From Tubiluchus corallicola (taxonomy: Eukaryota; Priapulida; Priapulimorpha; Priapulimorphida; Tubiluchidae), in the NCBI GenBank assembly GCA_030141605.1, contig JAQGDQ010000003.1, forward strand, positions 577,501 to 641,500: a stretch of 64,000 nt of DNA, read 5' to 3'. The stretch's first letter is position 1. Each line of letters starts with the position of its first letter. A program made the translations under genes and the position numbers. Below are positions 17,896-58,700 of this stretch, in pieces. A model generated the notes under the pieces. That model searched no databases. It was given only the letters and a program-made list of their open reading frames with translations, and was not told the DNA's origin.

Positions 17896-20800
17896 CTAAG
17901 ATCTCCAGTCTCTCTGTGATGAATGCCATGGCCTAGTCATAAATGCCGGTGGATACGTTGGCTCTTGCGGAGTCATGTCTGTTGTGAAAACTGGATCATT
18001 TTCTTCACGCTCATGGTCATAATACTGTGACTCTCTGTGGCTTTGGCTGTGGTCGTTCCAAGAACTGAAAAATTGCGAATGCCTGAGCTCTTCTTCTTGA
18101 TTGTGGTATAATTTGTCCTCATCTACATTAGGGCCACTTCCCAGCAAGCCTCGTCGTCTTTTAGAATTAGAGTAATTTTCTTCATCAGACATTGACCATG
18201 TACTGTAATCATCAGGCTTTGGTCCATGCCCCAATAATCCCTCTTGAGCAATTCGTGGTGACCTGCGGACAAAATCATCTGGCTGAGATTTCAAAGGTCG
18301 ATGTCTAAATATACCATCTTTGTATCTTCCATCAACTATATACTCATCAACTAACTCTTCAGATCCAGAGTCATGTGTTAATAAATGCCTTTCCTGTGTT
18401 TCACTGTTACTGTCAGTATAATATGGCTTACTTGTACTCGCACGACTGCTATAATCTGGAGTGCTAAATTCTTCTGAATAACTATCATCTTCAAATTGAT
18501 AAGAACAACGTTTTCTGGTTGATCGGTATTGTAAATCAGTTTCAATTCGGTGTGGCGAATTAACCTGCATTTTCCTAGAAAGTTGGTCAGTGCATGTTCT
18601 ACTAGTGTCTGGAGATCTTACATTCACACTATGGGGGTCTGTTTCATTCAAAAAAGGTCCCTTCCTTTTAATGTGTCCATATGACAGTTTGTCAACGTAT
18701 GCTTCACCTCGTTCTGGACGTGTTTCGCCTCTTTTCGGAGATGCTGCTTGTGAATTTTGTTCTGCCTCTGATTCATAAGAATAAGAACTCTTTAAAAAGG
18801 TTTCTCTTTCACTTCGTCTCAGCCGTTCTCGATTTTGTAAATGCCTGGTGTAATTATCCAGCTTGACCTTCTTAGTTAGCCTTCCACTTTTTTCCAACGA
18901 ATTTAGAAAGGAAAGTTGCGTTACAAGTCTTCCCAATGGTGTTTCAATAGCTGTATCTAATACGGTGTCTCTAAGAAGCTCTTGAGACACTGGTGTTGTA
19001 GCACGTGAATGAACTGGACTTCCACTAGAAATATTTTCTGTAAATCTACATTCCTCTTCCAGATAATTTTCTGAATAAGATGGCCTGCTAAATTCATCTT
19101 TTGCTTTAACTTTTTCAAGAAGCTTCCTATGGAAAGAATGTTGTTCTGTAGTGCCACTTGTGTTTTTGAAAGCAGGCTTCAACGCTTTTATAGTGTCATT
19201 TGATTCCTGAGATGAGGATGGATCATACCTTTCAGCAAATACGTCAGGATGGCGTGGGGAATTTTCTGTGAATGAAACTTGTTTTACCACATTATATTTT
19301 GTAGCATCAGGTGTGGAATTACTTGAAGGTTGACTAGGCAATCTCTCGTGCAAGCAAACTGGATCATACTCATTCAATTTCTCATGTTTACTGTGATGAT
19401 GATGTCGATGTGCTCTTGATCGCTCGTGATGACGTGACTTTCTGTGTTCATGCTTATTTAGCCGATTATCCTGTGCTGGCGATAAATAGCGTTTATGTGA
19501 CGATACATGGCGATGTTTTTCTTTGTGTTTACCTCTGAGTTTGTGCTCATATGTATGATCACTGAAGGAATTTGACGAATCCCTTTTTAAGTGCTTCTCC
19601 TTTTCAGAGCTTCTAGTCTTACTTAATTTGCTTCTCTTAATATCTTCAACAATAAGTTTTCGAAAAGCATATGAACTAGATACATTTTTTCTTATTCCAA
19701 GTTTTGCATCAGCTATTTTTGCAGTTTCTTCCTCATACCATTTTTTTCTTAGTTCGTGAGCTTGTCTTGCTTCTTCATTTTGCGTTTGTTTTTTGGGCTG
19801 CTCTTCATGCTTCACCTCGTGTCTCAGCTTCTCTGCTGTGCTGTCACGCACTATTCGCGATTGTACTTCCTTAACAAGGTCCGACAATGATTCTACATCT
19901 ATATCACTACTCGATTCTGGTACCGGAGATATGGTGAGGAGATTTTCGTCAAATGCACGTTCTGCAACAGGCGATTCAGGTACAGGAGATATAGAAAGTA
20001 AGATTTCATCCATAATAGAAGGTTCCTTAACTTCCTGCTTTGTGCTTAATGACACTGGCCATGGCGATTCCTCCTTCATTTCATCATTTTTCTCAGTCAA
20101 CTTGTTTGTTTCCAAATCATTTGTTAATTCCTCAATAATACCAGGTTTTCTGTTATCATGAGCTAATTCTGTAATTTCTTTCTCCAGATCTTTATCTATA
20201 TCAGGGTGTGGTGCATTTTTCAACAAATCCAAACTTGTTGGCACATTACGTTTTTCTTCTGGCATAGGCAAAGTAGGAGTAGGGAGCAATGCATCTGGCT
20301 TTGGTGAAGACTGATGCGAAGTCGGTGTAGGCAACAATCCAGACTTTGTGCTTGGTGGGTGATTTTTAGATTCTGGCTTTGCGCTCGGTGTGGGATAAAT
20401 GAGGTTTAAATGTACTGAACTATTTTCAGATGAAATTTGCTGCTGTGATGGTCCAAAATTATTGGAAATGCTTGTAACTGTTGGTGTAGCAGAAGATAGA
20501 GATTGAGGAATTGGATTTTGTTGTGATGATGTAGGAAGAGGCAGCAAAGGTTTTTTCGTTGTTGGCTGATAATTTTTTGACAATATCCTGGGGTCAGTTC
20601 TTGGCATATCTCGTGTGTTTGTGGAATTTCGACAATAAGGCAAAGCCGGTGTATGCGGTCTAAATGTATTGTCAGGTTGATTAATGGTTTTTGTCACAGC
20701 ATATGGCCTAGGGAGGGACACATCAGTCTTTTTCTGATAACTGTGAGTCTCACGCATTCGTGCGGGAATAGGTTTGGCACGACTTGGACGTTTGTACGGT

Positions 20801-23800
20801 AGAAGATCGGGCTGTTTTACTCCATTTTTCTGTCCTTGGGTTGATACTTTTGCAGCAGAAATCTTGGGAATTCGCAGAAACGATTCTGAAAAACCAGGGG
20901 GATACGTTTTCTTTTCATTTCCATTCTTTAGCTTGTCAGCAATTTGCTTGATAACTTTCCTATCACTTGCAGCACGATGAGTCAATGGAATATATTCCTG
21001 CTCATAAGCTTTTGATTTTACAAATCTTTTTGGAGTGTTTGCAGTAGTGTTAGACTCAGGCTGGTTTTCCTTTGGTTCTTTACCATTAACAACATTAAAT
21101 TGTTCTGACTCTTTATCAACTGAGCTCTCTTTCAATTTTGATTCAGTATTATCAACATTTGATTTCTTTGGATCACACATATTGATATTTCGTGGGTCTT
21201 TGTCTGTTCGTCTTTTCTTCGACTTTGATTCAGATAGATCATCACTTAAATGTTTAGTGGCAACAAAATCACTGGATTGCAGTTCTTTATCAACTCTCCT
21301 TTTCTTCGATTCCGCTGTTTTCTCTGTGTTTATTTTTGGCTGCTTTTCAGGTGTTTTCACCTTAGTGTCTTTTTTCTTTGTCCCTTTTTCGTTCTCGTTT
21401 GTGGCAGTCAAATGTTTGCTCTTACCTGATTCATGGTTATTATTACTAATTATAGTGGGTTGTTTGGAATCTACTTGAACACATTTGTTTTTGTATTTTG
21501 GCTTTTCCCCGGGTTTTGTGCACACAGAACACATAAACCCTGATGTAACTTGAACAGCTTTACCTTTTTTTGACACAGTCATTGTTTGCATTCCCGTATC
21601 AGCTCGACGGCGTCTTGGCTTGCATCTAGTACATCTCACTGTTGTAATCTTGGTAGTGCTGACTTTATCAGTTTGGGATATCCCATCTTTCAATTCAAAA
21701 GATGCAAATCCACTATTAGACAAAAAATTCCCTTTAGTTCTGAAGGAAGCTGAACTTTTCCGTTTCAGAAATGTTTTCATTAATTGATAGAGGTGGCCAA
21801 GTGTATGGAGATCTGTCTGTTTTTGAGCATGCTGCATTACAGCATGTAAATAATAACCTAACTGTGCTGAAACAGTTTCTAATAGAGTATCAGACTGATA
21901 GCGCCACAAATAACCTGGCATTGGTATTCTCCCTGAAGCAGCTCCTTGGGCACTATTAGGTACGTGTCCATGTGGCACTTCAGGGCTGGGCACTGGTGGA
22001 AACTCTTTGTATGGTGAAATGGCTACGCTTGGGCAATCATGTGGATAATTGATAGACACTGATTTGTCAGTACTCTTGCTCATATAAAAATTATGCAGTC
22101 TATCTACTTCTTTTTTGAACACAATATATTCTTCTTCACTTTTCGGAGAACTTAAAGACAAGCATGTTGATACTGGTCTTTTATCTAACTGATCACACTT
22201 TTCGTGCATGGCTTCTTCAGGTTTTAGGCCTCCTTCAGGTTCTTCATGAATGTGATCCACGGCAGACTCTGAATTCATAGATTGCACTGAAATAACTTTA
22301 GGTACACTTTTACTTTCACTTTCAAATGCACTGAAATTTTCTTGATGCATTTTTGCAAATACATCTGACTGTGACGGCAAATTTGCTTCAAATGGAACAC
22401 TAGATGACTGCAGGGAGGCATTACCTAAAGATACATCTTCTGCACGAGAAAGTGAAGAATAATATAAATCCAGTAAAGGCGCATGTGAAGGATTGATATA
22501 TGGACCATATCCCAACATTCGTCGGGCTTGATACTCAGCAAAGGTTTGTGGTAAGCTGTATGCTCCACCACACACATCAATGTACACTTCTGGATTGGGC
22601 AAACAACTACTATTAGTGGTAGATGACTCACTAGGTGATCTTTTCCTTGCAGTTGTGTCCAAGGCTCTACTTTTAGCTTTAATATCTTTCTTTCTGTATT
22701 TGTACAGGTCATGTGATCTAAGATTTTTACAAGCATTACGTATAACAGCCTTTGCCTTTTCTCTAACATTACTATAGTAAGCACTTTTATCTTTCAGTTC
22801 ATTACTAGACAAATCATCTGTATGAAAAGTTGCTATAGCAGAGTTTACGGTATCATAAGTGACACTGTTTAATTTAACCTGGCTCCTAGTGACTTCAGTT
22901 TTTAATTTTGTCTCCTCAAATTCAGGGCTACTTGAAGAGTATGAATGCATTTTTTTGATAAAGTTTGACTTGCTTTCAATTGCGGCCTGGGAAGATGCTG
23001 GTTCCACAATAGAATCAGTATCTTCCATGTCAGAATTAATGCCTTCTTGGTCTTCAATTTCTAATGACATTGCACTTGCTGCTTCTTTTTCAGAAAAGGG
23101 TTGTTCCATAGGGGAAGTGTCATCTTCTAGTTTTTTGATTATTAATGGTAGTGCACATGGTGTCTCTCTTTGTGGTTTCTTAGTAGAATCATAGTCTTTC
23201 TGTTCTTCAGCTTTGTCATGCACTATTCTTACTGCTTCACTTTTAGCAAGATCACATTCGCGTTTGCATTGTTGTACAGTCATGTCTGGTTCAACTCCAT
23301 GCTTTAACATAGGCTGCTCAACAATGGATGACTTATTTTGAGAAGGTAAAGCAGAAGCACTGATATCCTTCAGCAATGCAAATCCAGAATATTCTGAAGC
23401 TGCAATATCTGAAATAGGCAATGAAGCTGATTCTTCGTCTTTCTTGGTATTACATTTGGTCTCTGCAGAGTCTGCTGGTGCTACTACATAATTATGATCA
23501 GCCTCAAATTTAGAAAACGTGCTGTGTGTTTGTTTCCGTTGCCTTTTTGTCAAACATTTTGGTTTTGTGCCTATGTCGAGCTCTGAAGATTTACTTGGTT
23601 TAGAAGTGATAAGAGAGTTAATTTCTGGCAGGTCAGAGTCTGATTCATCTAAACTCGATACCTGAGAATGTAGCGCTGAATTAATGCAGTCAGTATTGCA
23701 CAAAGTTTCATCTCTTTCAGTCTCTTCATCTTTTATAGCTTCTTTCAATAATAAGGATTCATTTTGAAGGCAGTCATGTTTAAGTACACTGCTGGGGAGA

Positions 23801-26800
23801 CCTGAAATTTTACCTGATGTCCAACGGTCAATGTACATCCGATGTACATAAGTTATCACTGCTACAGGCAAACACTGCCTGGGATTACACACAGGGTTTT
23901 CTGAGGCATCTAGTTCATAGATGTAAACCTGTAAAAAACAATGATGCTTAAGTACAACAATAGTGACGATGGCTACGACAGCAGCAATATCGACAGTGAC
24001 CACCACTACCATTCACCACCATCACCATAAAAAACAACAACAGCAGCAAAAGCAACACAACAACGATTTATAATGTACTAAAATTTGTAAAAACAATACA
24101 TGTTTTAAAATGTCAAACAATTTTCTTGTAAAGAGTTTTTCAGATAAAAGGCCTGGAGGAAAAATAGATTCTTAAGGAGACATCTTCATCTATGAAATTT
24201 CAAGAAAAAAATCATAAAAGCAGCAGCAAAATAAATGTTCTGAAGAAACTGGCATTATTTAGGAAGTGACAAAAAGAAATCTGAAAGCATCTACCACAAA
24301 AACAATGATAAAGTAGGCGAAATGTAGCAACAAATTATAAATGAGGAAAATATAGCAGGCTGGCCCTGCTCAACCTTAACACACCATTAGATTAGCAATA
24401 CAATTTTGCAATGTGTCAAGTTAGTTAACGAATGTAGGCTGGAACACCAGTCCAAATCAGCAGAACTGTACTCAAAATCAAATAATCAATTTGTACGGGC
24501 AGAGTAAGGTAACAGGAGGTAACATTTTGGAGCACAGCACCAGTATCACACTTTTTTCAATACATTAGTTTCTCATAATTCAATGTTGGACATTCCTACT
24601 TGCACAACAGCTTTCTCAAATATAGTTATTTTCCTTCGATATTTTTTTTTGCGGAATACTTTGCCAAAAAATTGTTTTCCTGTTAATTACAACTTGCTTT
24701 AAGAACAGCAAACAGATAACTCCTAATATTAGTAGATTAATCATAATTATTGTATATTTCTTAGCATTCTATTCACATTTCGCTTTCTAAACATAATCTG
24801 GTTACCTAGAATGGCCACTGACGGCTTTTACAAAGAAAAACAAGCATTATGCAACCATGCAAAAATGATATAAACTAGAATCTCTGTTATGTTTAGTAAA
24901 GATACTTCCAAATCAGCTAAAGTAGTACAAGTTTAACACTACCTGTGAAGCACGTTTTAGTTTGTCTGCTCCCAAAGACGATGACGGCTTACGATTGGGT
25001 AAATGTGAATCTGCATTTGGTGTTGGTTCCGTTTCATAGGCAAGTGTCACGTACTTCTTTCTTCCATACATTGCCTAAAATGAAAAATTTAATTAAAGTT
25101 TCACTATACATTCCTTTTATATAAGCTGCCTTACACTGAACGCAGATCAGAATAATTTTTTAATAGTCCCTGTATAATATAGCACGATATAGTACAGTAC
25201 AGCACTAAACACGCACAGTAATAGTGCAAGCAAGCAGAAAACTCCTTCTTGAACTTCAATGGCTGTGTCAAATAGAAATTATGGCTATTTACAGTGAACT
25301 GCTCAAAACGAACTGATTTCTCAGAACACATCCTAAATATACTATCAGTAGTATTATCTTGAGAAATAACAAATACAGTCCAGGAATACTGATTCGCTGT
25401 TCACTATCTATCACAACAGCACATGATGAGTATGTACGTTAATCGTATCATCGCATGTACGTGTTGAAGATACGGTCAATGATGATGTTACACCATGATC
25501 GTATACTTTCTAGATTATAATATAAAAAATGACCTGATTTTCTAGCAACAAAATTTGCCTGGCTGCACGATACTGCATTGTATCATTCTTTTTTTTACCT
25601 GGAACTTAATGACATACACTGGCTTTTCCAAGTCTTTAACATCACCAAATGCTACATCAGGGTGTATGTAAAGGTTGACACCCATGGAAACAATGCCCAA
25701 CATCTGTTCATCATGGGCACTCGTTCGCAAACCATCTGCACACACAGATATGACTGTCTCTGCATCAGATTCTAATAAAAATGCAGCAAAATCCTCTACA
25801 AAAAATTAAAAAATTATCATCACCACCTTTTAGAAACAAGATTTATATATACAATATAATTATAAGCAAAAAATATAGGCCTACAGTTGCAAGTCCATTC
25901 ATTCATGCAATGTAAGGCATGCTTTGTCCCAAAATGTGACACGACTGATGTCAAATGTTAGCAACATTCAAACTATTATATTGGGTTTTATCAGACAGAA
26001 TGAAAAATCATAGACAGAATGACTATGTTTCAATTTATTATCAAATGAGTCTTGGGTTTTTCAAAATGTAATATTATCTTTCATAATACAGCTAATGAGC
26101 AAATACAACTTCCTATCAAGGACGGGTTTCCATCACCGATTAGGAATATGATAGCGTACCAGACAGAGCTAGGACCAGTTAAGGATTCACTTAACCGGTT
26201 AACCAGTTAATTTTTTATCAGTTAACCATTAACCGATTTAATCATCTAGACGACATAAGACGCCCTCTCTAATTTGCCGACTAAATCATTGGAGAACCAA
26301 ATAAACATGAAATTTACAATGCAAACATATCAAGTGAAACTTTAGAGGAATATCTTCAAGTAAGAGTGAAGCTTTTATTCATAGAAAGTCTACATAGGAA
26401 GTGAAAAGTCTATGTTTGTAAGGAGGCCAAGAGTTGTTGAACTAAGCATAATACTTTCCTACATGCAGAACACCTTACAGAAAGCTGAAGAACCAACAAT
26501 TGATTGGATTCTATGAGGCAGCCCTGACAGTGACTGAGCATGTTTGAGGAATTTTAGAGTCCACAGTAATAAAGATCTGTTAATTGGTTAAAAAAATTAA
26601 CTGGTTAATTTCCATTAATAATTCCACTAATGAAATTTCCATTAACTGGTTAACCGGTCCTAGCACCGGTATCAGACTTGTACAGTAAAACAAAAACAAG
26701 AACAAAGTCACACGTCCCTTTGCCAGGACCAAAAACTGCTTCTAAGAATGCTTATTGAATTCAATTTAAATTGATACATGCATAGGAATATGAGCTCACA

Positions 26801-29800
26801 ACACGTTAAATTGAATTTAATCACACGCTGTTTACTGAGTATACAATCACATATTAAACTAATTCGCAAAAAGTACTAGCTATTTTCCAGAAATAATTAT
26901 AATCATCTGTTTGCGAGGGGGAAATCCATATCAACAAATGATTACATTTCACTTTATAGCTGCTGTCTAGTAACTACTAAGAAAGCATTCATGGCAGAAA
27001 CATTTGCACCCCAACCTGTTGATGCAATCAAAATGCACAAAGCAATGCTTTACATGCCATATAGAAGCAAAACTTACTTGAATCTACATGATCTTTTTCC
27101 AGCTCCCTTTTTTTACAGTTGTATCGGTGAGCCAGTGTTTGGTTTTCAACAATGTGAACTGTCACAGGCACCCATTCAAATGACTCCTTATTAAACAGTA
27201 GGTAGGCATCCTGCACTTGTCTTATTACATTGGCAAATGATGTCACATCAAGTAAACATTCCTGCAGCATCACTAAAAACAGTTTTGTTTTTTAGTTTCA
27301 GTTTTGACATTGAACATGATCACAAATTTTCAACTTTAAATGCATTTAATGTCTTAAAGGAATTAGTTTCAAAGCTATGACCATCTGTTTCAAATTGACC
27401 AGCTTGATACAGTAATTGCAGATAATGAACTCGGACTCAGGCATTTTTAATAAGTTTGGCACATTGCAAGTGTAAACTCAGCACTAGATGACTAGGCTAG
27501 CCCACTCCGTACGTTGCCGTACTTTGAATAGCTGTGATGAAAGTAGGCTTTATAAAATTTTATAAAATTTGACTATACCTCAGCTTGATTTGATACAACC
27601 CAACCTAATATTATGATCTCAAGCTTTTTTACCTAGTACTCGGGAGTCAATAGTCAACATGACTTCACTATGCCTCAACTTGATGAAAAATGGCGTAGGA
27701 CCCTAATATATATTGTGTCTTTCTATATGTTTCAAACCTCATTATAACACCATATATAGGATACTACTAGGTATGAGGCTTAAGGGAAAGGTCACCAAAT
27801 ATTAAAAGCTAATCTATCTTAAAACACTTTTAATTACCTTAACAAGCATTCAAATCACATTTGACTGCATCAGCTCCTTATTGCTTACTTAACTTCATTT
27901 GAATCCACTTATGCAATTGTTACATATACATAATTCATTTTCTCACTTTTGTTTATGACACAGCTGCAGAGGTGATGGTCAAGCATGCTTCTCGAGGGCT
28001 TGAAGACAAATGCATGTATAACGTGACATGGTTTACACTTTTTTAAAGGTAATCATGTGCTTTCGTCGCTTATACAGCTGTTTTATGGCAATTTTGGTCT
28101 TATTTTGACCGAAACAAGCCATTATTTAAAGCAAATTAGTAAATTGCAGATGTAGTTTAGTTCCACTAAAGAGGATTTTTTATACTAATGCACACTCTAA
28201 TGCTTCTACTGAACTTCAAAAATTCACTTTCAGATTTTTCACTTTCGAATGATATTTCAGTGGAGGATCCAGGATTTTTGAAAGTGAGGGGTTGAGAAGT
28301 GACCAAGTAGAAAGGCGGGCGTGGAGCACTAGAAAGCATAGCTTCTCAGTGTGACAGCTAGGAAGTCTAGGGGAGTGGTGTAAGCTCTCCCAAAAGCGTT
28401 CTAAAGCATACTTGTAGATCATAAAATTCTAGAAATAACTAAATTTTCTGGGACACTTGTGTTTGAGTTTGTAGTTTTTATAACTACCATAAAAATAACA
28501 AATTAGAGTAAATAAACTGATTAAGTACAGAAGATTCCTGATTTCACAAAGCTTCTTTGTCAAGGGAGGGGGGATTGGAGACCCTCTGGATGGGCTACTA
28601 TATTTTCTTCATCTTTTGGGCTTCTTTTGGGTTGTGAAAACGGCGACTGCATTATTGTTAAGAAAGCAAAAAGAATTAGCACTTGTTAATAATTTTCAGT
28701 GGTGAACTGAAAACAAGTCGTCATTTGTTTGCTCTTTTCTTTGAAAACCAATTCATTCTGCAATATTTTGAAGGCTATGATTTACGTGAGTAATAAATAG
28801 CAGGCAATGATCACAATCTGCAGCCATCTGCATCAGTAATTACATAAATTTAACTAAAATTTTGGTTATTTTCGAGTTATCTGAAAAATGCACTAATGCT
28901 TAACCTAAAGAAGCAGAATAATAAGTCATTCCTGCATGGCTGTATCCAAATAAAAGTGAAAACTGTACAGTGGTGCTACTATTACATTAATACATATACA
29001 TGACTGCACTGCGTTTTGTAATCTAAGCACAAGTACTCTTTTTCACAACTGGAATTGACAAAAAAATTGAAGAAAATCCATAATTTTAGCCACTTAGTTT
29101 TAGGGTTGGCAATATCCACAGTGATTTTAAAACTATAATTCCCATTTATTTGTAATTTAATTCCATATTAACTTTATAATGTATGTGATCTATGCATCTG
29201 AGCCCCCTGAGAGCTGTTGAAAATAAGTTTACAGTAGGCTTACTTACAACCAAACTACCTCTGAGCCAATGCTAGATATGTACATGCAAAACGAGGAAAT
29301 AGACCAATTTCTTTAACCTTTCATGAAAGTTACTTTGAGAATTGCCTGAAATTGTGTATTCTTAATACATAGAGTTTGAGTTTGACGGGTTACACTTACA
29401 TTTATAGATTAAAGCAAAAATAGATTTGATTTTTGCCTGTATATACAGACTGTGTGCAATGTCTCCACCTCACAGATTAACCAATTAATAATGGCTCGAC
29501 TTATATTATTAACCAATTAATAATATATAAAATATTAATTTTAGTAGTACCAAGTAGTACACTAGTGTAAAAATAATTTAACTGATTAATAATAATATTA
29601 ATAATATGACAATAATAACTAGTATAAGTGTATATAGCACTGATTGCAAACTCTACTTACTGCACATGTAGTTACACTTTTGAATCACACTGATTGTCTA
29701 AATTGTTTCCCCACATGTCGGCAGCTGAGGCTTAAAGACACGATTTGTAAACATTCCAGGGACTAATGTCTGTATGGCTTCAGCATTGAAATGGCAATGC

Positions 29801-29838
29801 CATGGTTTCAAAAGATGTTCTTTATGTGCACATACAAT
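17896..29838 (-). CDS. TASOR/TEX15-like protein with N-terminal DUF3715 (pseudo-PARP) domain; 5' end not found
   Basis: Exons, right to left: 29715-29838 (uncertain), 27078-27272, 25599-25795, 24943-25074 and 17896-23928 (stop TAG), about 2226 residues seen. Residues about 40-240 fit the DUF3715 domain of TASOR, TASOR2 and TEX15: a helical start (YNCKKRELEKD), a fold core ETVISVCADGL...LGIVSMGVNLYIHPDV, then VYIYELDASENPVCNPRQCLPVAVITYV, matching the family's YxYE...P..CPYAVV strand. In TASOR this inactive PARP fold serves the HUSH chromatin-silencing complex. The remaining 2010 residues come from one 6-kb exon and are largely disordered. They contain a helical patch (YLWRYQSDTLLETVSAQLGY), a Cys pair motif (CTRC near 21625 and CSVC near 21525), LLPTPT and ISPVPES repeats, a basic/His-rich tract (about 19380-19620) and two GLLG-GP repeats near the C terminus. 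Family membership is inferred from the N-terminal domain only. TASOR, TASOR2 or TEX15 orthology is undecided. Confidence 0.6.
26164..26668. mobile_element. Second hAT-like MITE, in an intron of the TASOR-like gene
   Basis: The left end is CAGAGCTAGGACCAGTTAA. The right end read in reverse is CGGTGCTAGGACCGGTTAA, and both continue into repeated TTAACCGGTTAACC-type palindromes. The flanks GTACCAGA (26156-26163) and GTATCAGA (26669-26676) are an 8-bp duplication with one mismatch. There is no open frame in the 505 bp, so it is non-autonomous. Its TIR differs from the element at 2177, so it is a separate family. Confidence 0.7.
29715..29838 (-). CDS. Probable upstream exon of the TASOR-like gene
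   Basis: The open stretch IVCAHKEHLLKPWHCHFNAE continues to FKPQLPT after an AG at 29839-29840. Only this frame is open. To keep phase with the exon at 27272 it must end at 29715, before GTGGGG, a weak donor, giving LPT-L-MLQECLLDVTSF. That join resembles the FxPxxP lead-in to the TASOR family domain. A better-looking donor (GTAAGTAG near 29663) would read through a stop. Confidence 0.4.
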
Positions 29839-32126
29839 CTATAAGAAAAAAAGCATATTTAGCTATTATATTCGCCAAATTTGCATTATTCTAACTTAAG
29901 TTTATAAAATTTTCGTAATGAAAATAGAATGCACTACACTCAGCATATACTGTACCACGCAAATTTGCCAGCTGCTGTTCCTAGCCAGTAGGTGGTGTCT
30001 TTCATTCGGGTGGCGCCATCCTTTGACTGACACGTAACTTAAAATTTCAGTCGATGTGACCTCAGCAATGAAATCACAAAAATATTATTGTGTATTGGCC
30101 CTATAGAATTCGAAAGATTTTACTTTAGGAAATTATGTTTGCAAATGATAATGTACGTGTAGTACAAATTCTATGACAAACATCTATAAACCTTATGTGT
30201 TCTGCCAGCTTGATCGCAATGAGCTCATCCACTAGAGACTTGGTTGTTTTTCTTTAATAATTATTTCAGTTAAACTCTAAAATGTAATGTATTAAAATTT
30301 TCTGTATGAAAACAAAACCCTGCGATTACCGATAGATGAATACTGTGAATAGTTAAGAAGCTTTCTATTACAGATGCATATTTCTATTGAAGCAATAAGT
30401 GTGAATAGTAACACAGAATACCTGACGTTATTGTGCATGTATCACCTAGGAATCATGTCACTGTGCTTTTTAGCCAGGTCCTGTGCCATCATATAGATAC
30501 AGGTTGTAAAGAGCCCTTACGGGTTACATAATGGCAACAATGCATGCTTAAATTAGGATAAAATATTTATTATCTCATAACAATAATGTTCATAAAAATG
30601 GTAAATAGTAAGAATATAAAAACTGGTGGCACAGATCAGACAGATTTTTTTACGCAAAAGGCACCTGCAGCATAATATGCATTTGAAGCCTTTATTTTAA
30701 TCACAATTGCAAAGTTCAAAGTGGAATTATTATGCGAAAATGTTTTATCCCCTCCCAGTCATCCAACCTAGCATGTTTTTATGCACTATAGTTGGATGTT
30801 TAGTTTTTTACACACCTTGATCAAGGTAAAAGACATATTCCATTGTTAATTTTCTTGATATTTTTGAATGTGTGTACCAGCTCTTTAAGTCTTGCAACAG
30901 TAACAATATAATTTATTTAATTTTTATTCCATATTTTGAGCAATGAAGACCAAGCTAATAAAAACAGTGTAAAACTCAATAAGAGGATAACATGAAGAAT
31001 ATGTAAAATCTGGGTACAACAATAAAAGTAATTTTATTTACAGTTTAATTTATTTATATCACAGAATTTAATTACATTTGACTACAAATTCACTTGTAAG
31101 TAGAACTGCTTTATTACATCACAAAAAAACAAAGAGTTTGTATTCATTTAGTTTCAATGATTACCTAACTGAAGCATAATTTCATTCACAGGTTATAATC
31201 AAGTTTAAATGTTTTAACAGTGACATCTAGGGTCTAAAATTTTCACTAGAGAAAGTGTGCTCACAAACTATGTGAACTGTACAGCTCAAAAGATATTTTT
31301 AATCTAAAAAGTAAATACAAATTGAAACTATGCAGATTCACTCAAGAACACTTGAATAGTCCAGCGAAACCGCAAAGTAAGCACTTCCTACATAACGTTC
31401 CAAAAGTGCAATCACCATATTAAAGTAAACCTTTGGTAAATTTGACTTAAATGTTAAAAATTTATAAAATATCGAATCACAGAGCAAGCACTATTTGATG
31501 CATACTGCAGGCATGCGATACTGTGAACACTGATATTAACTATAGTTTCGTGACTCTGTAGGCACTTATAAATAATTTTCACCATTACAACAACACTGGG
31601 TTTTGAATTATAAGTGAGCAAGACAGTATTTGAACCAAACATTTAGAACTCGAAAAACGCATTCAGCACTGCTTTTCAACTGGAACGAAAACCGAAAAAG
31701 AAATGATTAGCAGCAGAGCATTGCAGCCAGTGTGGCTAGGGTAAATTTAGTTGAATTGCATTAATGACTAAATCACAGCAATGCATGCAGGTATATAGGA
31801 AAGACCCATAACGATAATCAACTTCAATACAGTGTGATCAGAAGACCTGTGTGTATGCATTTTTTCAATCAGTCATCAGACAAAAATGTTTGCATAGCTT
31901 ACCACTGTTGCTTACAGCTGGCCTGAAAGCAATGTGCAATACAAGCAAGTCACTGTGTTGTGTAGAAGAAATGAAACAATAACATTGAGCATTTGGATCA
32001 TTCTGTATTACAAGCAATCACTAATGTGCACAAACTGTGATGTAAAAATGCAAACCATCTGCCAGTCAGTCTGATTATATACATTTTGATAACTTGTATA
32101 TAAAACTATACATTTCTGAAACACAG
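29839..32126. other. Between TMEM128 and the TASOR-like gene
   Basis: This stretch should hold the TMEM128 3' UTR and the unseen 5' exon(s) and promoter of the TASOR-like gene. I cannot identify a start codon exon with confidence. No repeat family was recognised and the sequence is AT-rich. Confidence 0.4.
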
Positions 32127-34744
32127 TCATGGAATCATCGCTATAGTTACCACTCCTCCCAAGGTTAGGCAGAGTAATATAAATGGCGTTAGAATGCCCC
32201 AGACAGGCCACAAACCAATCATACAACTAAAGTAAATAAAATAACATTTTAGTAAAAAAGGTAGTGAGTACAAGAGTCTAAGCATGAGTATTCTGAGTTC
32301 TTAGCTAATGAATTTTTGGCTATATAAATGATTCTGATCTTGTTTGTCCTTCTACTAACCGAGCTGCAACTGCACAAATCAAGTGCATGTGTCCTCTCAG
32401 ACCTACTACTAAAATGCGCTAATAAACATCACCATCACTCTCCTCTCTTTTTCCTTCTCGTTCTCTCAGTCTGTGACTTTCTTTCACTCTCTCGCGCTCT
32501 CTTTGTCACTTTCTTTCACTTTCACTTTTTCAAAATTTTAAACTTTCATAAAGTTTGCAAAATTTTCACTGTTCATACCAAAATCCTCCAATGACAAAAG
32601 CAAATGTTGCTACAGGTACTGCCAAAGGATGCTTCTTTTCCCATTCATCTGATGGCATTTTTTTCACCCAAGACAAAAACACCACTAGATAAGCTCCAAT
32701 GATAATGTGCACACTGACTAGTGCAACACCTATGTTAAACCATGCCCTGAAAATATATTTCTACAATGATAAAACTGAACACGAGTATGAACTAAATTGA
32801 GGTAAAGAAATGAGAATGTTTTGCAATAAAAAAAAAATTCTTAATGACAAGAACTGAAACACCTGATAAAGAAGTCTACAATAAATAAAGCAAAAAGTTG
32901 CTTAAGTATGTCACTGTGCACTATCTTCAGGTAAAGTAAAAACAAGTAAGGGTTAATTAGGCCCCCAAAACACATCCAATCGGGATCACAGCTTGTGCTC
33001 AAAAGCCAAGACCACATTTATTTGAAAATAAGCGCTTGCTGACACTGGTATTAAATTTTCGAGATTATAATAAAATAGTATTTTACTTAAGTTAATTAAA
33101 TACATAATGTTATAGTAAGGTTACAGCACTAGCTGCTTAAAAAAACTCCAAATGGGTTGAAGATTGTGAAATAAATTATCTTCTATGTGAATCTACCTTT
33201 GAAAGAGAAGCATCATTCTAATTTGTGGGAATCTAGTTGTAAATCTTACTGGGGCCCTCACTGATGTAGAGTAGGCTCTTTAAAACAGCTACAGAAGGGA
33301 CAATAACCAAAGCAGGCCGACGAAAAGCTGTTTACTTTAAAATAAAATGAACAAGTTTTCCCTATCACAACTTGTGTCAACTTGAACTTACCTATTTATT
33401 CTTATGTCATACAGAATAACTGAAAGAAATTCGGTGAAGTATAAAACAAGTCCTGTCAGAAGCAACCACAAGACATTCTGTATGGTATAAGGCGATGACG
33501 ACGTCTTCCTTTTTCTTTCCACATTGACAGTGTCGACATCTGCAGCATCTGAAAACCAAACAATTACTGTGGCATGTGGCATTCAGAGTGATTGTTTATA
33601 TCTACATTAAGATAATTGTTCTACAAATCTAATATATCTATAAAGTGACAGGCAGATTTTGAATCTGTTGGAAAAGTGCAACACATGATAAACATGAGAA
33701 TAATACGGGAAATGAGTGCGGAAGCAGAGAAAGTATGGCAGAGGAACCTGGATAAGGAGCTAATAATATTTGAAAAACTACATTTCCATATATTCATGGA
33801 CTCAGTTATTCTCCCTGACCTTTGTACAAGATTACAACATACAGTAAAGGAAACTTATCACAGGGTCTTATCTAGCCAATTAAACATGCTCTCAAAATTT
33901 GGAAATTATTTTTCAAAATATTCTCAAATCTAAATCTAAAATGCTAAATATTGAAAAGTTGAAGATCAGGTGGAAAAATAAGTCAAGAAATGACATTTTC
34001 TGTATTTGCTGTAAACATTATTGAAAATTTTTAAAATTCTACACGGGTAATTGCAGTAAATTAAGCTTACTACTTCTTTTACTTTTTTATGGCACCCTTA
34101 TTTCAAATTGGAGAAAAAGTGGTAGCTTGCTTGTAGTGCACTCCTTACAGTGATCACTGGAAACTCTCAACATTGGTGCATTAAAAACATTATCACTGCC
34201 TAAATTGTTCCATTTTGAAATTGAAATTTCTGACTTTTGCTTTTTTATCAATCTGTAGCCATTGCAACTCCAAGTTAAACATTATTTTGAACTGTCTGAT
34301 AATTGACCAATCAATCACGTCACAGAAAAAAGTTATCACTGTATTTAAATGATGTGTAATATGCAAAAATATCTGCTTGCAAGTTGTGGGTATCAAATTT
34401 CATTTGCAAAACCAAATGGGTGCACTAGACTAGATCTGCCAATGTGTAAAACTATGTTATTTAATTAAAAACAAATTACATACTTTCACCATTGAAATCA
34501 GCCATTTTTCGACATTTGTTTCACAAAGAATTTTTAAATTTGCAATTGCCAAGAGTAAATTTTAGCAACTTAAGCTAAAATTAGTGGTTTGCTAATTTCT
34601 GCTATTCTAAGTAAGACTCTTGAAAAAAATAAGTAAGGATACCTTACCTTGATAATTTTGTTCTCTGGCAAACATGCATTCCTCATTGTTTAGCTGAGCA
34701 TTTAATCGTCGTCGCAAGCTTTCTTGATCAGTGATACTTTCCAT
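32127..34744 (-). CDS. TMEM128: TMEM128 homologue, four-pass membrane protein
   Basis: Four exons: 34648-34744 (ATG), 33392-33548, 32579-32746 and 32127-32226 (TGA). The total of 522 nt gives 173 residues; human TMEM128 is about 165. A short charged N terminus (MESITDQESLRRRLNAQLNN) is followed by four hydrophobic segments: NVLWLLLTGLVLYFTEF, then IGVALVSVHIIIGAYLVVFL, then LAVPVATFAFVIGGFW, and a last one around PVWGILTPFILLCLTLGGVV. The segment order, the YFTEF and W-VW-I-TPF motifs and the length match TMEM128, an endomembrane protein of poorly known function. All splice junctions keep phase. The third intron begins next to a long pyrimidine/purine tract (32409-32534). Confidence 0.87.
32409..32534. 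repeat. Pyrimidine-rich tract (CTTTC/CTCT), plus strand
   Basis: Over about 125 bases of plus strand nearly every base is C or T, including CTTTCTTTCACT units. On the transcribed minus strand of TMEM128 it is a GAAAG-rich block about 45 bases after the donor of exon 3. Confidence 0.7.
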
Positions 34745-35085
34745 AATTGATCATACGCTTACTGTGCTAAACAGAGATACAAAGACGCATACATAAACAA
34801 AAATAATAATAAGATAATTTAGTTGCCACAAACAACACTAAACTGAAAATTGAAGTCCATACATTATCACAAAAAACCTTGTGCACTGCAACATAGTGAT
34901 ATAATAGCTTTTTCTGTTTTTTAAATTACTGGTGCAATATCAGGCTGAGGCCTGTAAGGCACATATGTTTAAAGGATTGGCTTGCTTTTCTGAGTGATTT
35001 CATTTAAATTTAATGTTAACTTAATTAACCATAGAGTGATGTGTCGACATTTCACACAGACATTTGAAAACCGAGTTTGCCACAA

Positions 35086-37033: not shown

Positions 37034-38060
37034 TCACACGTCCAGTGACATGGTTCTGCTCACCTCCCTATGCCAGGACTCCCTGCTCGCCGCAATGCCC
37101 CAAGTGCATTTATTTCTAAGGATCAATGCCATTGAAGTGTTTAAATCTTTCTGTGCAAAATCTAAATATGTTAACATTTGTCCTCCAGCAGGTTTTTTAG
37201 CTGGTTCTATAGCTTGTTGAAGAGCTGTCTTCACTAGAAGATCATCAGGTAGTCTAAGCATATGCCCAATCCATCTTTCCCTTCACACCTGACTTAATTT
37301 TCTAATAAATTTTCTAACATTATACTTATGATGTATATTGCATCACATTCAAGGATTTCTTCCAAACAGCAAAACAGAGTTTTTCTCCGAATGCAATCAA
37401 AGGCCTTTGTCATATATTGAGAATATATATTGAGTAATCGGTAAAAGAGATGGCCTTTTTGGCTAGTAATTTACAGGCTTGTACTAATTCAGTAGTATTC
37501 TGGCCTGGTTGATATGCTGCTTGGCTTGCTGGAATGTGTGTAACCTGTCATAGATCCTAGTCAACATACAGATAGCCAAAATCTTCCTTATTAGTGTAAG
37601 CAACATCAATGGTCTAAGATTTTCTGTAGGACCTCGTTTCTTACCTGGCTTGGGTAAAGGGATAAGTATTCCTTTTTGAATATCCTGCAGAAATGTGCCT
37701 GTTTTTGAAATATTGTTTAGAATTTCAGCGATTTCTGCATATAAATTATCTGATCCATACTTGACTAACTCAGCATTTAATTCATCAGCCCCCGGGCTTT
37801 TGTTGTTTTCCAATTATTTTGCCGCATGCTTTACTTCTTCTTTAGTAAATGGAACTTTCGTTGGATAGTGAGTCCTTTTAACGCCAACTACATTTTCATT
37901 ATTAAAAATTCGTTGAAAAAATTCTGCTATATAATATCTGGTAATATCCTGTCGGCAGTCACTCCTGTGCCAACTACATTTATCTTTGGTCCACAATAGT
38001 TCTGCTCTAGGTCAATATTTAGAAGTTTTCGTATATTTCTTGCACTGTACGTTACTTTTT
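37034..38060 (-). pseudogene. LINE polymerase relic with deleted RT core
   Basis: On the minus strand, broken frames run in order: ...ARNIRKLLNID, ITRYYIAEFFQRIFN, PFTKEEVKHAAK, stop, LENNKSPGADELNAELVKYG, GILIPLPKPGKKRGPTENLR, IRKILAICML, AAYQPGQNTTELVQ, a frameshifted TKAFD block, then directly ERWIGHMLRLPDD and PAKKPAGGQ. These are the linker, finger and palm start, followed by the C-terminal GH-LR-PDD motif of a non-LTR retrotransposon. The section that should hold the YxDD catalytic box and thumb is absent, at about 37300-37340. The same family left the thumb fragment at 4850-5361. Confidence 0.75.
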
Positions 38061-38639
38061 TAGCATAAAATGATGTGGAGAAATCTAATTAAACTTTGAT
38101 TTATTAAAATTCAACTTATTTGGATTTCGAAAGTGGACTAGATCTTCTTCTAATGGTAATCGGTTACTACAAATTTTCTGTGGCTCGGCTACTGATTCTT
38201 TTGCGATGTGGTTTGTAGCTTTTTGCATCCGCTCAATATTACTTGGTATATTACTATGTATACTATTATTACTATAATATTAGTAATTATTACTATGAGT
38301 ATGAGTATGAGCACTATTATTACTGTATTACTGCTATATAGTATTATTAGTTTAATTTACTTTAAGGCAAATATATGTATCTAAAGATATGAATATATCT
38401 AAAATCTGGCACTAGAATTAGTAATAATAATACTATTACTTAGTAATATTGTGTAATATTCAGAGACTCGGAAATTAATTGTAAATAGTATAAATACTTG
38501 TGAATACGTTCTTCCTTCTAATCTTGCTGATAAACATTTAAAAGTAATTTTCACAGATGTGGGCTGCATTACTAATTAGTTTAGTGAACTTAAAACTATC
38601 GTGTGTGAATTGCAAACTGATTTAGTTTTTTTTTGTCAG
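38061..38639. other. AT-rich spacer with ATTACTATT simple sequence
   Basis: From 38240 to 38350 the sequence is made of imperfect TATTACTATTA/GAGTAT units. Nothing else is recognised. Confidence 0.5.
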
Positions 38640-39830
38640 AGATAAATCCAAAAGGCAAAAAATGTAATATATACATTGCAGAAGCCCATTTATTTTACAA
38701 TTTAAATTGAAGAGGCATCAATTTATATGTCAAGACGAATATTACTGCTGTAGAAGTAAAATCACCGGTACATATTTTCAACTCCTATATCTGGGTTGAA
38801 TTGAGTCTAACAAGAGGAGCTAATTTGCTGTTTGACAGTGTTTACCGCAGCCCCTCTTCATCCTGCTAAGACAATGTAAATGTGTTGAAATTACTAAAAG
38901 AGTTAAATAGTTTCGGCACTAAATACAAAATTATCTGCTGGGATTTTAATTTAAGTAATATCAACTGAGATATCTGGTCAACCACTACATCAGAAGTCAG
39001 CATGGAAACTCAGTTTTTAAATACATTAAGAGATAACTATATGGATCAGCTAATAAAATTTCCAACAAGACATAGAGCTGGGCAGAAACCAACACTAACT
39101 GATCTACTAATAATTGTCAACAATGATGAGATGATTAGTGATCTGCAATCACTACTACCATTAGGTAAAAGTGATCACTCATTTATTTCCTTTGCAGTTA
39201 ATATTCAGCAAGAAATGAAGGCCACTAATTTAAGAAAATTTAATTTTTACAAGGCAAACAAACATGCAATGGCCTACGAACTGGAGATGGTAAATTGGGA
39301 TTCCATTTAGCAGGGAAGGATGCTAGTAAGTGCTGTACAGAATTTGAGGAAGCCATCCAATTTATTTCAAACAAACATATACCCAAGCAAAAAACCGTGA
39401 AAGTAGTTAAACCTAGATGGTTCAATGATGAAGTGCTATGTAAAGTAAAGGAAAAGAAGGCCACATATAGAAGGTACGACAGGCAAATCTCGGGGAACAA
39501 TTATGTTACATATAACATTGCTAGGAATAATGCAACTGCTGCGATTTGTTTTTCACAAAAAATTAAGAAAAAAGTTTTCTAGAGAATGTTCAACCAACCC
39601 AAAAGCTTTTCGGTCGTATATTAACTTTAATATGATGAAGGAACATGAACTAAACGAGAGGATGGTAGTGTTGCTTCCACTGTTACTGATAAAGCAAATC
39701 CTCTGCAAGACTATTTCACGTCGGTTTACACTAATGAAGATTTAACACACATTTCAAGCAAATCCTCTGCAAGACTATTTCACGTTGGTTTACACTAATG
39801 AAGATTTAACACACATTCTAATATTTACAC
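38640..39830 (+). pseudogene. CR1/Jockey-like LINE endonuclease and linker relic
   Basis: Plus-strand frames give RGINLYVKTNITAVEV, VYRSPSSSC, LLKELNSFGTKYKIICWDFN (the GDFN box of the endonuclease with Gly changed to Trp), FPTRHRAGQKPTLTDLLI, then LPLGKSDHSFISF (the SDH box). A linker follows with KPRWFNDEVLCKVKEKKATYRRY, NPKAFRSYIN and NPLQDYF. This is the C-terminal part of an apurinic-type endonuclease plus the pre-RT linker. It stops before the RT domain. Internal stops and shifts show it is dead. Confidence 0.78.
39692..39817 (+). repeat. 64-bp tandem duplication inside the LINE relic
   Basis: The segment from AAGCAAATCCTCTGCAAGAC at 39692 recurs from 39756 at an offset of 64 bases. 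The only visible difference in the overlap is C to T (CGTCGGTTT against CGTTGGTTT). Confidence 0.9.
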
Positions 39831-52758: not shown

Positions 52759-55700
52759 TCACTGTGCACAAATGCTGTTTAAAGACCAATTAACTTTTCC
52801 CTGCAAAACTTTATCAGTCAGTACCTGGAAAAAGCAATGAATAAAAGCTATACATGTAGTTCATAAAAATATTTGATCCCTTTAATGGTATGTAATAAGC
52901 TAGCAAAATGCAGTAAAGTTAATAAAAAAGTAATTTCTGTGAGATAACATGTCAGTCATCTTAGGCTAAATAGTATGCATGGCGACTGTTTCTGCTCAAT
53001 GACAAAATAACACGGAAGAAAAATTGCAAACTTGTCTAATACCTTTTTATATGTTTGAGCACGAAGTCTGTTTACTTCCTGTTGTCTGAGACGATTTTCC
53101 TCGATACGTTTAAGTTGTACCTCTGGCAATTTGCTGTACATACGCTGAGTTCGAGCCTTCATCTCTTCTTCTGTTATTACCCTCTTTTTACTGAACAAAT
53201 CAGCAGCTAAAAACAATGACAAACTGAACCACAAAAAGCAAAATGTGTAACAAGTCGTTAACAAATATTTTCTTTATTGAGATGCAACAATGAAAGGCAC
53301 GTAAATATGTATTAACAAAAAAATACTTGTTACAGTTTATCACGTAAAACGGAAAATACATAGTGTGCTGCCTATGTATTATAATAAATCATTGCTTTTA
53401 GCTATTGTCTAATAATTCATAATTTAATATTAAGGTCTTCATTTGTAAACATTATTTTTTAATGTACACTCGCAATTTTAAGTGCCATGCATGTGCAGAT
53501 TGCTAAACTCTAGAAAATTGCAAGGCAAGCAGAAATGGGTGCCTTGAGGTAATACAAATTCTATGGTCTGATATATGGGAAACAATGGGTATCATGTTGT
53601 ACAATAGAAAAACTGCATTTGATTGTATGGCAAGAACAACCCTTGAGCGACACACTTTTGAAGCAATGTTCGATCTGCAGGGTAGTGATCCCCCACTGTG
53701 CATGCATGGCATATAAATCTAAGCGTAGCATAGCTGTAGTCCTGAGATTATACAGAATTGAACACAATTCATGTTATTACTGCAATCCTTGCAAAGTCAG
53801 TCATTCAAATTCATTTACATTATAAACAAGAAAATGTACTGCAAATTAGTTAAGCATATATTCAATAATTTATGCACCTTACCCTTTAACACATCTATGG
53901 TGTCAGGCTTGTGTGTTTCATCCATGTTAAGTATTTGTAACTGTTGTGCATGCAGTTTTCTAGCTGCAGCATTTAAACGTACATATCTCTGTCTTTCACG
54001 GCAATGTGTGATGAATGTTGGTTTTGCAAGCAGTAGTGCTTCCTGAAAAACAGTCCAACTACAAAATTCATGCTAGAACTCATTTATTAACACTATGGTA
54101 GAAAAAGAGCATGCAATCATCATACAGCATAAAAGCTTGTGCAAGAATAATAGAAGTAATTACAGAGACCACTTAACAACACTTAATTAATGACTATACA
54201 GTTTACAGACTATAATGTTTCATTTTGTATGGCTTTTAAAATCCCAATTAATTATTGTTTAAGAAGCATTCGTTACCCCTCAAAACGACTCTACATGATC
54301 TTTTATTAAAGAATGCAGAACTGTAAGATAATTTAGTACCTGATTTAAACTAATATGCCAGCTATAGGTATGTTGATGTATATGAAAACATGAAAATGCA
54401 TCTAATACTATTTGATCGATAGCTAAATTGCAAATTTTAGAAGAACTGGCATTTGACATGTTTTAAACCAATTATTTTTTGCCAAGTTCAGTGATAGCAC
54501 ATACCTGAAGTGAAAGACCATCAGTTGCTCCTCCCCAAATTTGCTGACCATCTTTCGTGGGTTTCTGCTTACCAAAAGTAGCTTTCTTTCCTGTAGTAGC
54601 TCTATCCTTTAGTCTTTTGGATGCACTGCCTTCTTTTTTTGCAGGAATAAACCAGCTTAGTCCAGGATGGGGTTGCATATTTTCTTTAGAGGCAGAACTA
54701 TCAGCAGAAGTTCCAGCTTTATATTTGAGCTTAGCATCCAAGCTCCTGGTTGACTTACTACTAGAAGATACTGTATTTGAATCGCTTAATGTAACATCTT
54801 TTGCAATTCGTTTCCTGCTTAGTTTGTTAACTTGAACCGATTTATCACTTCTAATAAGTTTCTTTAATAACGGATCATGGAAATCTTTTAAATTGGAACC
54901 TAGCCTGATATCATGGTAACGAGATTGGGCTACTGATTTCTGACCTACTTTTGTGCTCTTATAGGTATGTTTATCTTTTTGAGGAGGTGTATTTCCATAC
55001 ATTTCCATCAGCTTTTTCCTTTCTGGTGATTTCCTGTACTGTTTCTCATTATGCAACTGTTGTTGTTTTAGTTCCTTTTGCTGTTTGACAAAAAGCAAAT
55101 CTTGCAGCAGAGAAGAATCAGACAACTCGGAACTACTTCTGCCTTGAGATTTTCTTATCTGTTTACGTATCATTAAAATTTTTCTTAAAATTCGCAATTC
55201 TTCTTTATATTTATGAAACATATTTTCATTCGTTATAGTAGAAGAAGAGGTAGTTGAACTTATTGAGCAGCGAGAGCTCAAACAAATTGATACAGATGTG
55301 TCGCTGCAACTAACTGATACAGCACCACTTCTTTCAGAGCCATTTGCAGAAGACGAATGAGGAGAATTTTCGGGTAAGTTCTGCAAGTTGGCACTTTCTA
55401 ATGAATTCTTTAACTCTTTCTTATGCTTTGTTGCTGCTCCACTATTCTGTGTCGCGTGGTTTCTGTGTACTGGTTTTTTATCATATAAAGTAACAGCTTT
55501 AGCACTCAGTCCACGAAGTATACGACTTTTTTTAATCAACTCTAATGATTGTTTATCACTTGCATTCAAAACTTCCTGAAGCAGTTCATCAGATTCTACA
55601 TCAGAACTGTTAGAAAAATGAGATCCTTCTTGCTGCAATTCTGTCGACTTTCTAGAATCTCTTCCACTTCTCATATCATACGAATCCAACAGTTCCGAAA

Positions 55701-58700
55701 GGTAATGAGGTCGGAACTTGATACACTTTCCATCATCTGACAACTCGAACAACATTGATTTGTCATCAGGAGATTGACAATTTCCAGCAATTAATGCACG
55801 CCTAAGTTCAGCAGCTGCTTTAATTAAATTTGCCTGCAGATCTTGTAAATCTTTATTAACAATACCATGCAATTCAATTATTCCGGAAAAAGAATGTTCT
55901 TTAAGCGAAGTTGGCATTTCCTCATTGTGACCAAACAATGGTTTACTGGAATCACTCTTAAAGGAAGAAGACATTCCAGTGCGAGAGTGATCTTCTTCTG
56001 GCTTCTCTGACAAACAAGATATTACAGGAGAAACTCCTCGATCTACGTAGGAATGATTGACATTCTTGTCGCGGGAAGCTAAAGTTTCAACAACTAGTTT
56101 TCGTACAAGTTCTTTGAAATTATTTGGAAGAGAACTACTTAACAGATGATCAAGCACAGAAGACAATCTTTCGTTCCAGGACTTTATCAGAGTTTCTGGA
56201 CTAATTACTTTTAGCTTGTTTGCATCTTCAAGAGTGAAAGTTCCACTTTTGACAAAATCACCACGTTTCTTACAACTACTGGCAGCTGCATTGAAAACGT
56301 GACCGTTTTTCAAGTCGTTTTTAGCTTTCCTTTCTTGTGAAGCATTGTTAGATGAAACACTGCCCTCTTGGCCCAACAGCATTCGTTTTTCTTTGACGTC
56401 ACCCACAGATTTTGCATTTGCTTGAACAGATTTATCACAGATAGCCACTGCTACCATCATATCACTGTTACTTCGACTGTGAGCTCCAGTATCTTTCACA
56501 GCATTATTCCATAAGTCTCTAACAATTTCTAATTCTTTCTCAGAATTTCCTTTTACTTGTTGAATAACCCATGTTGGTATGCTTGCCGGAGCTTCGCCTC
56601 GTTCACTGCTTTTGATGGTAGAGTCACTATCGTCAGAACATCCAGAAACTTGTCTGTGGTTTGAGGCCATTTTCTCAGCCATGGAGACATTATCATTAGT
56701 AACAAGATTTGTTGACCGTTTTCCCTCACCAGTTGAGTACTGGAAAAAGTTCAATCCAAAATCATTTTTCCAAGTATTATTCTGTACTGATTCTGTGGTG
56801 GAATCAGTTTGTACAAGAGGTGCTGATTTGCTTTCTTCTGCTTGATGATGTTGCACATCATTTGCTGTTGAAATTGTCGATGAATGTAATGCGAAGATCG
56901 CTTCACTGCTGCTAAATTGTTCATTTGTCTGTTTTGTGTTGTTTTGTTCTGGAGAAATCAAAACAGAAGTGGAATGTGAAGGATCTTTGGCTTGTTTTGT
57001 TTCATTAGCCAGTTCATCATTTGTACAAGTATTTTCTGTAGTTGCAATTTGTGGTGAAGCAGAAACATGATGGTCTGACAAAAAACCTGATTCCTCTTTA
57101 TCAAGGACTTTTCGACTAAACCTATGAGTCATACTTAATGCGGTGGCTTCAGTTTTTTCTACAGATGAATTTTCATTGGGAGAAACAGGTGTAATATCAG
57201 TAATCTGCTTTTGCTTGTTTTCGACTTTGATTTCGGTTTTTGCTCGTCTAGCGTATATTCCCGGAAAAGCTGCAGCTGGAGCAGATCTGCTGCCAATTAC
57301 ATGAGGAGGAAAGTCAGGAGGAGCTGCGTCTGTAGAACCTGTTAATAAAAACAACTAATACCAGTCTTGCTTGTAAGCTTGCATATTGACTATTACCACA
57401 AGCTTTGTTAAACTTATCAAATAACGAACATATCTGGTACATACAATGACCATTCCTGAAACTAACGCAAAAACTAGTTATTACAGATACACCTAAACAA
57501 CATTTTGCGTTGGCATAACTGCATTTATAAAATTTGAGTACTACAACAGCTCAAGCACTTACTGACTCAACATTCAGCAAGTTTTCTTTTAACTTGCAAT
57601 ACGTATGTTTTTGCCACTATGAATACTGACGTCAAGTCTTGCACTTCTGTAGGAACACAGTGAAACCAACTATAGACCTCCAGCTAAAGAGAGACAAGCT
57701 AAGAAGTCAAGCTAAGTTGAAGTCAAAATCATGGGTGCACAGAGATCAGAATCACTTTTGATCACATAAGAACCAGAATCACATAATGTGTAATTGCTTG
57801 ATGATAAAATATTTGAATAAAAGTTTAGAAATTTATTTTAAGTTACTGAGTCATACAAATTTAGCACACTTATTGTAGCTTTTTTCACTCAACAAATTCC
57901 TTAATTCATTTGTTGCCTTCCTATGCACAAATGAATACGAAACTTGTACTACAAGTAAGAGGGAAATTAATTTCAGACTGCTTGTCTATCTGAGTGAACA
58001 AAAAGTAAAGTTACCCAAAGACAGCAGACATCAATAACCAATCTTTGTGCAAGGTGTTCATTAAAGAATAAAAAACATCATATGCAGCACTTAAAAGACT
58101 TCCATTGTCATGGTAATATTGCCTCTATTTGGAAGAATGTTCACGGCTACAAAATCTTAGCTTGCATTAGTGCAGATGTGTTGCAAGCTTACTATGCTTA
58201 CATTTATATTAGAAGACATAATTTTTGACTTAATGGAGTGGTTCATCACGAGCCAAATTTTGTTAATGCAATTTTAATAATACAAATGCGAACCAAATAT
58301 GATTACTGCAAAATTATATACAAACAAACTGCTTAAGGCAATGGCTTACAAAAACTGAGAACTGCATCAAAAGTAATGCCTAAAGGTGACAGGATTGATT
58401 ACAGTGACTATTGAAAATCTGTCATGGTAGAAGTACCAAGTTAAGTTAACCATTTCTCTTAAAACATCCCCTTACACGGCATCAAAAAAGCAATAACAAT
58501 AGATGTTTAGCTTGTGTAAACTCGGAAAGGCACACAGATCACTAGTTCATTTCAGTCTAATGCTGTGTCTTTGTCTGATTTGTAAGTTCATTATTCGGAA
58601 GAGTGTATGCAAACAAATCTGAGCAGACCTAATTACTACTTGCCAACAATCTAAAAGCAGTATTATCCAGCACAAAGAAAAATGAACATAACCAAGTACA

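Follow-up and report, generated by a model that had tools for sequence, protein, structure and literature searches.

The minus strand of the 64,000-nucleotide stretch of Tubiluchus corallicola DNA analysed here (the window) carries a gene that, judged from its sequence, is almost certainly a member of the DUF3715 (RDTS) family. In the predicted protein, an N-terminal DUF3715 domain with a degenerate triad is followed by a tail of great length that is mostly unstructured and gave no known domain. Three small exons and the first part of a 6-kb exon encode the DUF3715 domain. Our preferred reading, to which we give a probability of about 0.6, is that this is a TASOR/TEX15 family gene whose pseudo-PARP domain would serve RNA-linked transposon silencing and whose tail would act as a flexible scaffold.

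The tail derives from a minus-strand open frame of 2038 codons at 17896-24012; given its own mononucleotide composition, a frame of this length would stay open by chance with a log10 probability of about -62. The first-pass annotation had read this frame as a 6-kb terminal exon. The long open frame stood, but its first 28 residues belong to an intron that ends at the exon D acceptor at 23928 (98.4th percentile). The annotation had also overlooked the exon at 25074-24943. In our model, four minus-strand exons are joined (27270..27078, 25795..25599, 25074..24943 and 23928..17896), and the frame remains open through all three joins for 2184 residues:

Exon A, 27078..27270, minus strand: open frame, with the ATG at 27270 taken provisionally as the start.
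Exon B, 25599..25795, minus strand: DUF3715 core, holding SMGVNLYIHPDV; the frame is open through its joins to exons A and C.
Exon C, 24943..25074, minus strand: 44 codons, with AMYGRKKYVTLAYETEPTPNADSHLPNRKPSSSLGADKLKRASQ; acceptor TTTTAG/GCA, donor CAG/GTAGTG, phase 0.
Exon D, 17896..23928, minus strand: 6-kb terminal exon of 2010 codons, with the stop at 17896-17898.

Within exon D, the final part of DUF3715 is located at about 23928-23836 and is followed by the tail; two AATAAA sequences, at 17462 and 17237, lie downstream of the stop. Splice sites were ranked with rough, approximate site frequencies. The donors of exons A, B and C stand at the 99.3rd (CAA/GTAAGT, among the GTs of the window), 98.0th and 97.0th percentiles of 3513 minus-strand GTs. 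Among 3889 AGs, the acceptor of exon B reaches the 93.6th percentile, that of exon C the 92.7th and that of exon D the 98.4th. Near the ATG at 27270, a poor acceptor is found just upstream (27272, 27.9th percentile) and a good one just downstream (27261, 97.8th percentile); thus, exon A is probably preceded by another coding exon, and all residue numbers given here are provisional. By phase, several 5′ joins are possible, such as GT 27837 with acceptor 27261, or GT 29714 with acceptor 27272. The piece at 29698-29838, which had been proposed as a 5′ coding exon, is not supported: it matches no Pfam profile, and the donor that scores best in it, GT 29714, reads as in phase with the weak acceptor at 27272 and not with that at 27261. 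Directly upstream on the same strand is a TMEM128-like gene (32120-34750, minus strand), which limits how far upstream the 5′ exons of the DUF3715 gene could extend. Its segment 32566-32760 matches PF20479 (E=1.2e-13), while the outer exons, among them one at 34607-34750 that matched no Pfam profile, were recognised by eye.

Residues 1-216 match positions 3-150 of the 150-position Pfam DUF3715 profile (PF12509), scoring 38.4 bits (E=1.5e-9) against a curated Pfam cut-off of 28.5 bits. The ORF at 25542-25805, which holds exon B, scores 12.4 bits alone, and a rough join without exon C (exon A, 25542-25805 and the start of the long exon) reaches 17.7 bits (E=0.0036), so the score passes the cut-off once exon C is restored and the joins are exact. 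Among 177635 distinct PDB sequences, human TASOR (6TL1) was the sole sequence match at E≤10, with E=4.4e-9; the alignment begins inside exon A and spans residues 39-204. Both results bear out the family membership claimed by the first-pass annotation, and the two peptides on which it had relied, SMGVNLYIHPDV and CNPRQCLPVAVITYV, are present. Matches to SMK_beta_su in the upstream pieces (E of 0.1 and 0.29) were under the cut-off, were not listed for the full domain and were rejected.

In the 6TL1 alignment, TASOR L184, Y217 and the LTQ-motif Q stand opposite L71, N105 and Q174, respectively, with L184 and Y217 placed by a chain-to-protein numbering offset of 109 that fits both letters. The catalytic H-Y-E triad is absent, and the positions read L-N-Q, which predicts a pseudo-enzyme. 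Reported triads are L-Y-Q in TASOR, L-Y-S in TEX15 and V-T-E in TASOR2 (PMC7955679); the L found here is common to TASOR and TEX15, the Q is shared with TASOR alone, and none of the three has an N at the second position. As a possible pointer to the TASOR side of the family, the shared Q is thin evidence, being one position.

A search of the organism's own genome (343.5 Mb, 2344 contigs) with the domain sequence returned four matches, all at the DUF3715 locus, and hence no second DUF3715 copy; a genome search with the tail returned only the tail itself among 17 candidates scored, and no paralogue. The PF12509 family search of the same genome gave no match although the gene is present, probably because three introns cut the domain. 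Genome-wide searches for TASOR_alpha-beta, TEX15 and PIN_TASOR (the last at E≤1) were likewise empty; they were run without a positive control, and since the same type of search missed DUF3715, they cannot show absence. Three SPOC loci were found in the genome and examined as a possible separate TASOR-like gene. By eye they resemble other SPOC proteins, their open frames looking PHF3/DIDO-like, RBM15-like and SPEN-like, and on this reading none was taken for a separate TASOR-like gene.

The tail (residues 217-2184) gave no significant Pfam match, whole or in four pieces, and no significant match to PDB chains, whole or in two pieces, in agreement with the earlier statement that it lacks known domains. 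The 2038-codon ORF by itself had no Pfam or PDB match at E≤1. The Pfam scans of the tail were run with a limit of E=10, but HMMER filters discard the majority of hits with E above about 0.1; SPOC, TASOR_alpha-beta, PIN_TASOR and TEX15 were all missing from the listed matches, although divergent copies could escape such scans. Weak Pfam matches to DUF7795 (E=0.032), PocR (0.079) and DUF4820 (0.75), all under their cut-offs, were taken as chance, as were weak PDB matches to Naa10 (0.34), SPT3 (0.52) and EsxB (1 to 1.4). FoldIndex-positive runs, counted at ≥8 centres, lie at residues 338-390, 620-687, 689-710, 783-790, 809-882, 1321-1343, 1482-1494, 1497-1514 and 1818-1850, and residues 224-337, directly after DUF3715, contain no such run. 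Four features can be localized in the tail:

Helical patch (residues 845-900), 21751..21918, minus strand: FoldIndex positive at 809-882; modelled helices 854-874 and 881-897, pLDDT mostly below 50.
CxxC pair (CTRC 940 and CSVC 974), 21475..21639, minus strand: possible zinc ribbon, without Pfam support.
Long predicted helix (residues 1555-1624), 19579..19788, minus strand: single-sequence AlphaFold2, ten-residue-block pLDDT 48-95.
C-terminal helix group (residues 1823-1898), 18757..18984, minus strand: single-sequence AlphaFold2, ten-residue-block pLDDT 46-86.

Both structure models of the tail are single-sequence AlphaFold2 predictions of low confidence. In that of residues 530-990 (mean pLDDT 38.9), helices occur together with a single pair of three-residue strands, and that of residues 1410-1900 (mean pLDDT 54.2) shows helices 1519-1546 and 1555-1624 and the group at 1823-1898. 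The helical patch noted in the first-pass annotation is thus FoldIndex positive and modelled as helix, but at low model confidence. The paired CxxC motif was found where it had been described, and when residues 217-2184 were shuffled 10000 times, 64 of the shuffled sequences had two CxxC within 60 residues. The ordered short repeats attributed to the tail were not recovered as such: they are two-copy words (LLPTPT, ISPVPES, GLLG), and the seven repeated 5-mers observed, against a mean of 2.67 and a maximum of 10 in 500 shuffles, are not clearly above chance.

Elsewhere in the window, an ALMS-motif exon is located at 52959-53273 on the minus strand (PF15309, E=2.3e-13). Upstream of it, on the same strand, are open frames at 54475-57354 (960 codons) and 60369-63998 (1210 codons, reaching the end of the window), neither with a Pfam match at E≤0.01. 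We presume that the region 52959-63998 (minus strand) is perhaps one CEP295/ALMS1-like gene; given its giant open frames, giant exons are not special to the DUF3715 gene in this window. The TMEM128-like and ALMS-motif neighbours are in keeping with an animal genome; a search for molluscan haemocyanin returned no match and is uninformative about the animal's affinity. A Myb-domain exon, CDC5L-like by eye, lies at 1759-2121 on the minus strand (PF13921, E=3.6e-10). Pieces resembling non-LTR retrotransposons occur on both strands at 37034-39745, among them an endonuclease-like match at 38969-39307 (E=0.0029, under the cut-off) and a segment at 37487-37813 that is reverse-transcriptase-like by eye only, with no Pfam match.

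TASOR-like proteins have been reported throughout metazoa, including invertebrates, as a class defined by DUF3715-SPOC-DomI, and the published tree marks which sequences carry SPOC-DomI, the study having used 239 sequences (PMC10578480). The same source places the split between TEX15 and TASOR-like DUF3715 domains in early metazoan evolution, calls TEX15 itself vertebrate-specific and describes the molecular role of the RDTS domain as undefined even in mammals (PMC10578480). By title, it is the only one among the DUF3715 literature matches listed that treats the domain across animals; a hydrocoral proteome paper also turns up among these matches (PMC12383311), and a transcriptome of the snail Lymnaea stagnalis names a TASOR gene (PMC12294990). 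Since invertebrate DUF3715 proteins are already published, such a member is not unexpected, and the gene is a useful but expected member of a known family with invertebrate representatives.

In human TASOR, DUF3715 (106-332) is described as required for silencing, as having no NAD site and as binding single-stranded RNA weakly, and SPOC (350-505) lies close behind it (PMC7532188). The protein described here resembles human TASOR, the HUSH subunit of 6TL1, in its DUF3715 match (E=4.4e-9), in the L and Q of the triad, in the missing catalytic H-Y-E and in its great length. In contrast to human TASOR, no SPOC, TASOR_alpha-beta (which may or may not correspond to DomI) or PIN was detected here, no FoldIndex-positive run directly follows DUF3715 where TASOR has SPOC, and the tail lies in one 6-kb exon without detected relatives. 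As in the invertebrate TASOR-like proteins, DUF3715 is at or near the N-terminus of an animal protein, whereas SPOC-DomI was not detected here; this comparison is with the class description (PMC10578480). With TEX15 the protein shares a DUF3715 followed by a very long tail, but the TEX15 domain was not detected here and TEX15 is reported to be vertebrate-specific (PMC10578480).

Under our preferred reading, the DUF3715 domain would adopt a pseudo-PARP fold like that of TASOR, as the 6TL1 match suggests, and would transfer no ADP-ribose. By analogy with the family, it may support RNA-linked transposon silencing: LINE1 silencing still works when the DUF3715 of TASOR is exchanged for that of TEX15 (PMC10578480), so that silencing is probably a trait of the family. 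The tail may be a flexible scaffold that holds lineage-specific partners through its helices and possible zinc ribbon, and it may take the place of the SPOC-DomI and the periphilin-binding linker of vertebrate TASOR. Several points weigh on the other side. TASOR retains a single residue of the catalytic triad, Y217, and this position holds N in the present protein. The tail scans listed none of SPOC, TASOR_alpha-beta, PIN_TASOR and TEX15. Deletion of SPOC or DomI leaves human TASOR non-functional (PMC7532188), and a protein lacking both might therefore act differently from TASOR.

The strongest rival, which we regard as rather unlikely, is an ordinary TASOR-like protein with SPOC-DomI in a tail too divergent for Pfam profiles. 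The SPOC of human TASOR was itself identified by structural homology prediction (PMC7532188), and with the HMMER filters in place, plain profiles may miss SPOC-DomI here. Additionally, two triad positions, L and Q, are as in TASOR, while TEX15 shares the L only (PMC7955679), and the tail stretches 620-687, 689-710 and 809-882 are FoldIndex positive. Nevertheless, the TASOR SPOC sits close behind DUF3715 (PMC7532188), where residues 224-337 here lack a FoldIndex-positive run; the tail scans listed neither SPOC nor TASOR_alpha-beta within the filter limits given above; and the 530-990 model, with its single pair of short strands, is helical, albeit at its low mean pLDDT.

A position on the TEX15 side of the DUF3715 tree, with the giant exon and tail inherited from the ancestor of TEX15 and a role in a germline piRNA pathway, appears improbable. 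It would fit the placement of the TEX15/TASOR-like split in early metazoan evolution, but the source that dates this split calls TEX15 vertebrate-specific (PMC10578480). Moreover, the TEX15 domain was found neither in the tail nor elsewhere in the genome, the latter by the search run without a positive control, and the third triad residue is Q like that of TASOR and not S like that of TEX15 (PMC7955679). A chimeric model, with the DUF3715 exons and the 6-kb exon in different transcripts, is very improbable: although the splice model is read from the sequence and the exon A acceptor is uncertain, exon D encodes the final DUF3715 part (VYIYELD...CLPVAVITYV), with the profile match crossing the join to its last position, and the frame is uninterrupted throughout.

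Within the TASOR/TEX15 family reading, we tentatively consider a more specific form, held at less than even odds: a third DUF3715 architecture, in which an RDTS pseudo-PARP is coupled to a lineage-specific scaffold of nearly 2000 residues, with long helices and a possible zinc ribbon, that replaces SPOC-DomI, giving a transposon silencer with partners other than MPP8 and periphilin. An RDTS domain on a different tail would separate the domain's own role from that of SPOC-DomI, and such a member would show whether RNA-linked silencing predates the vertebrate-type HUSH assembly.
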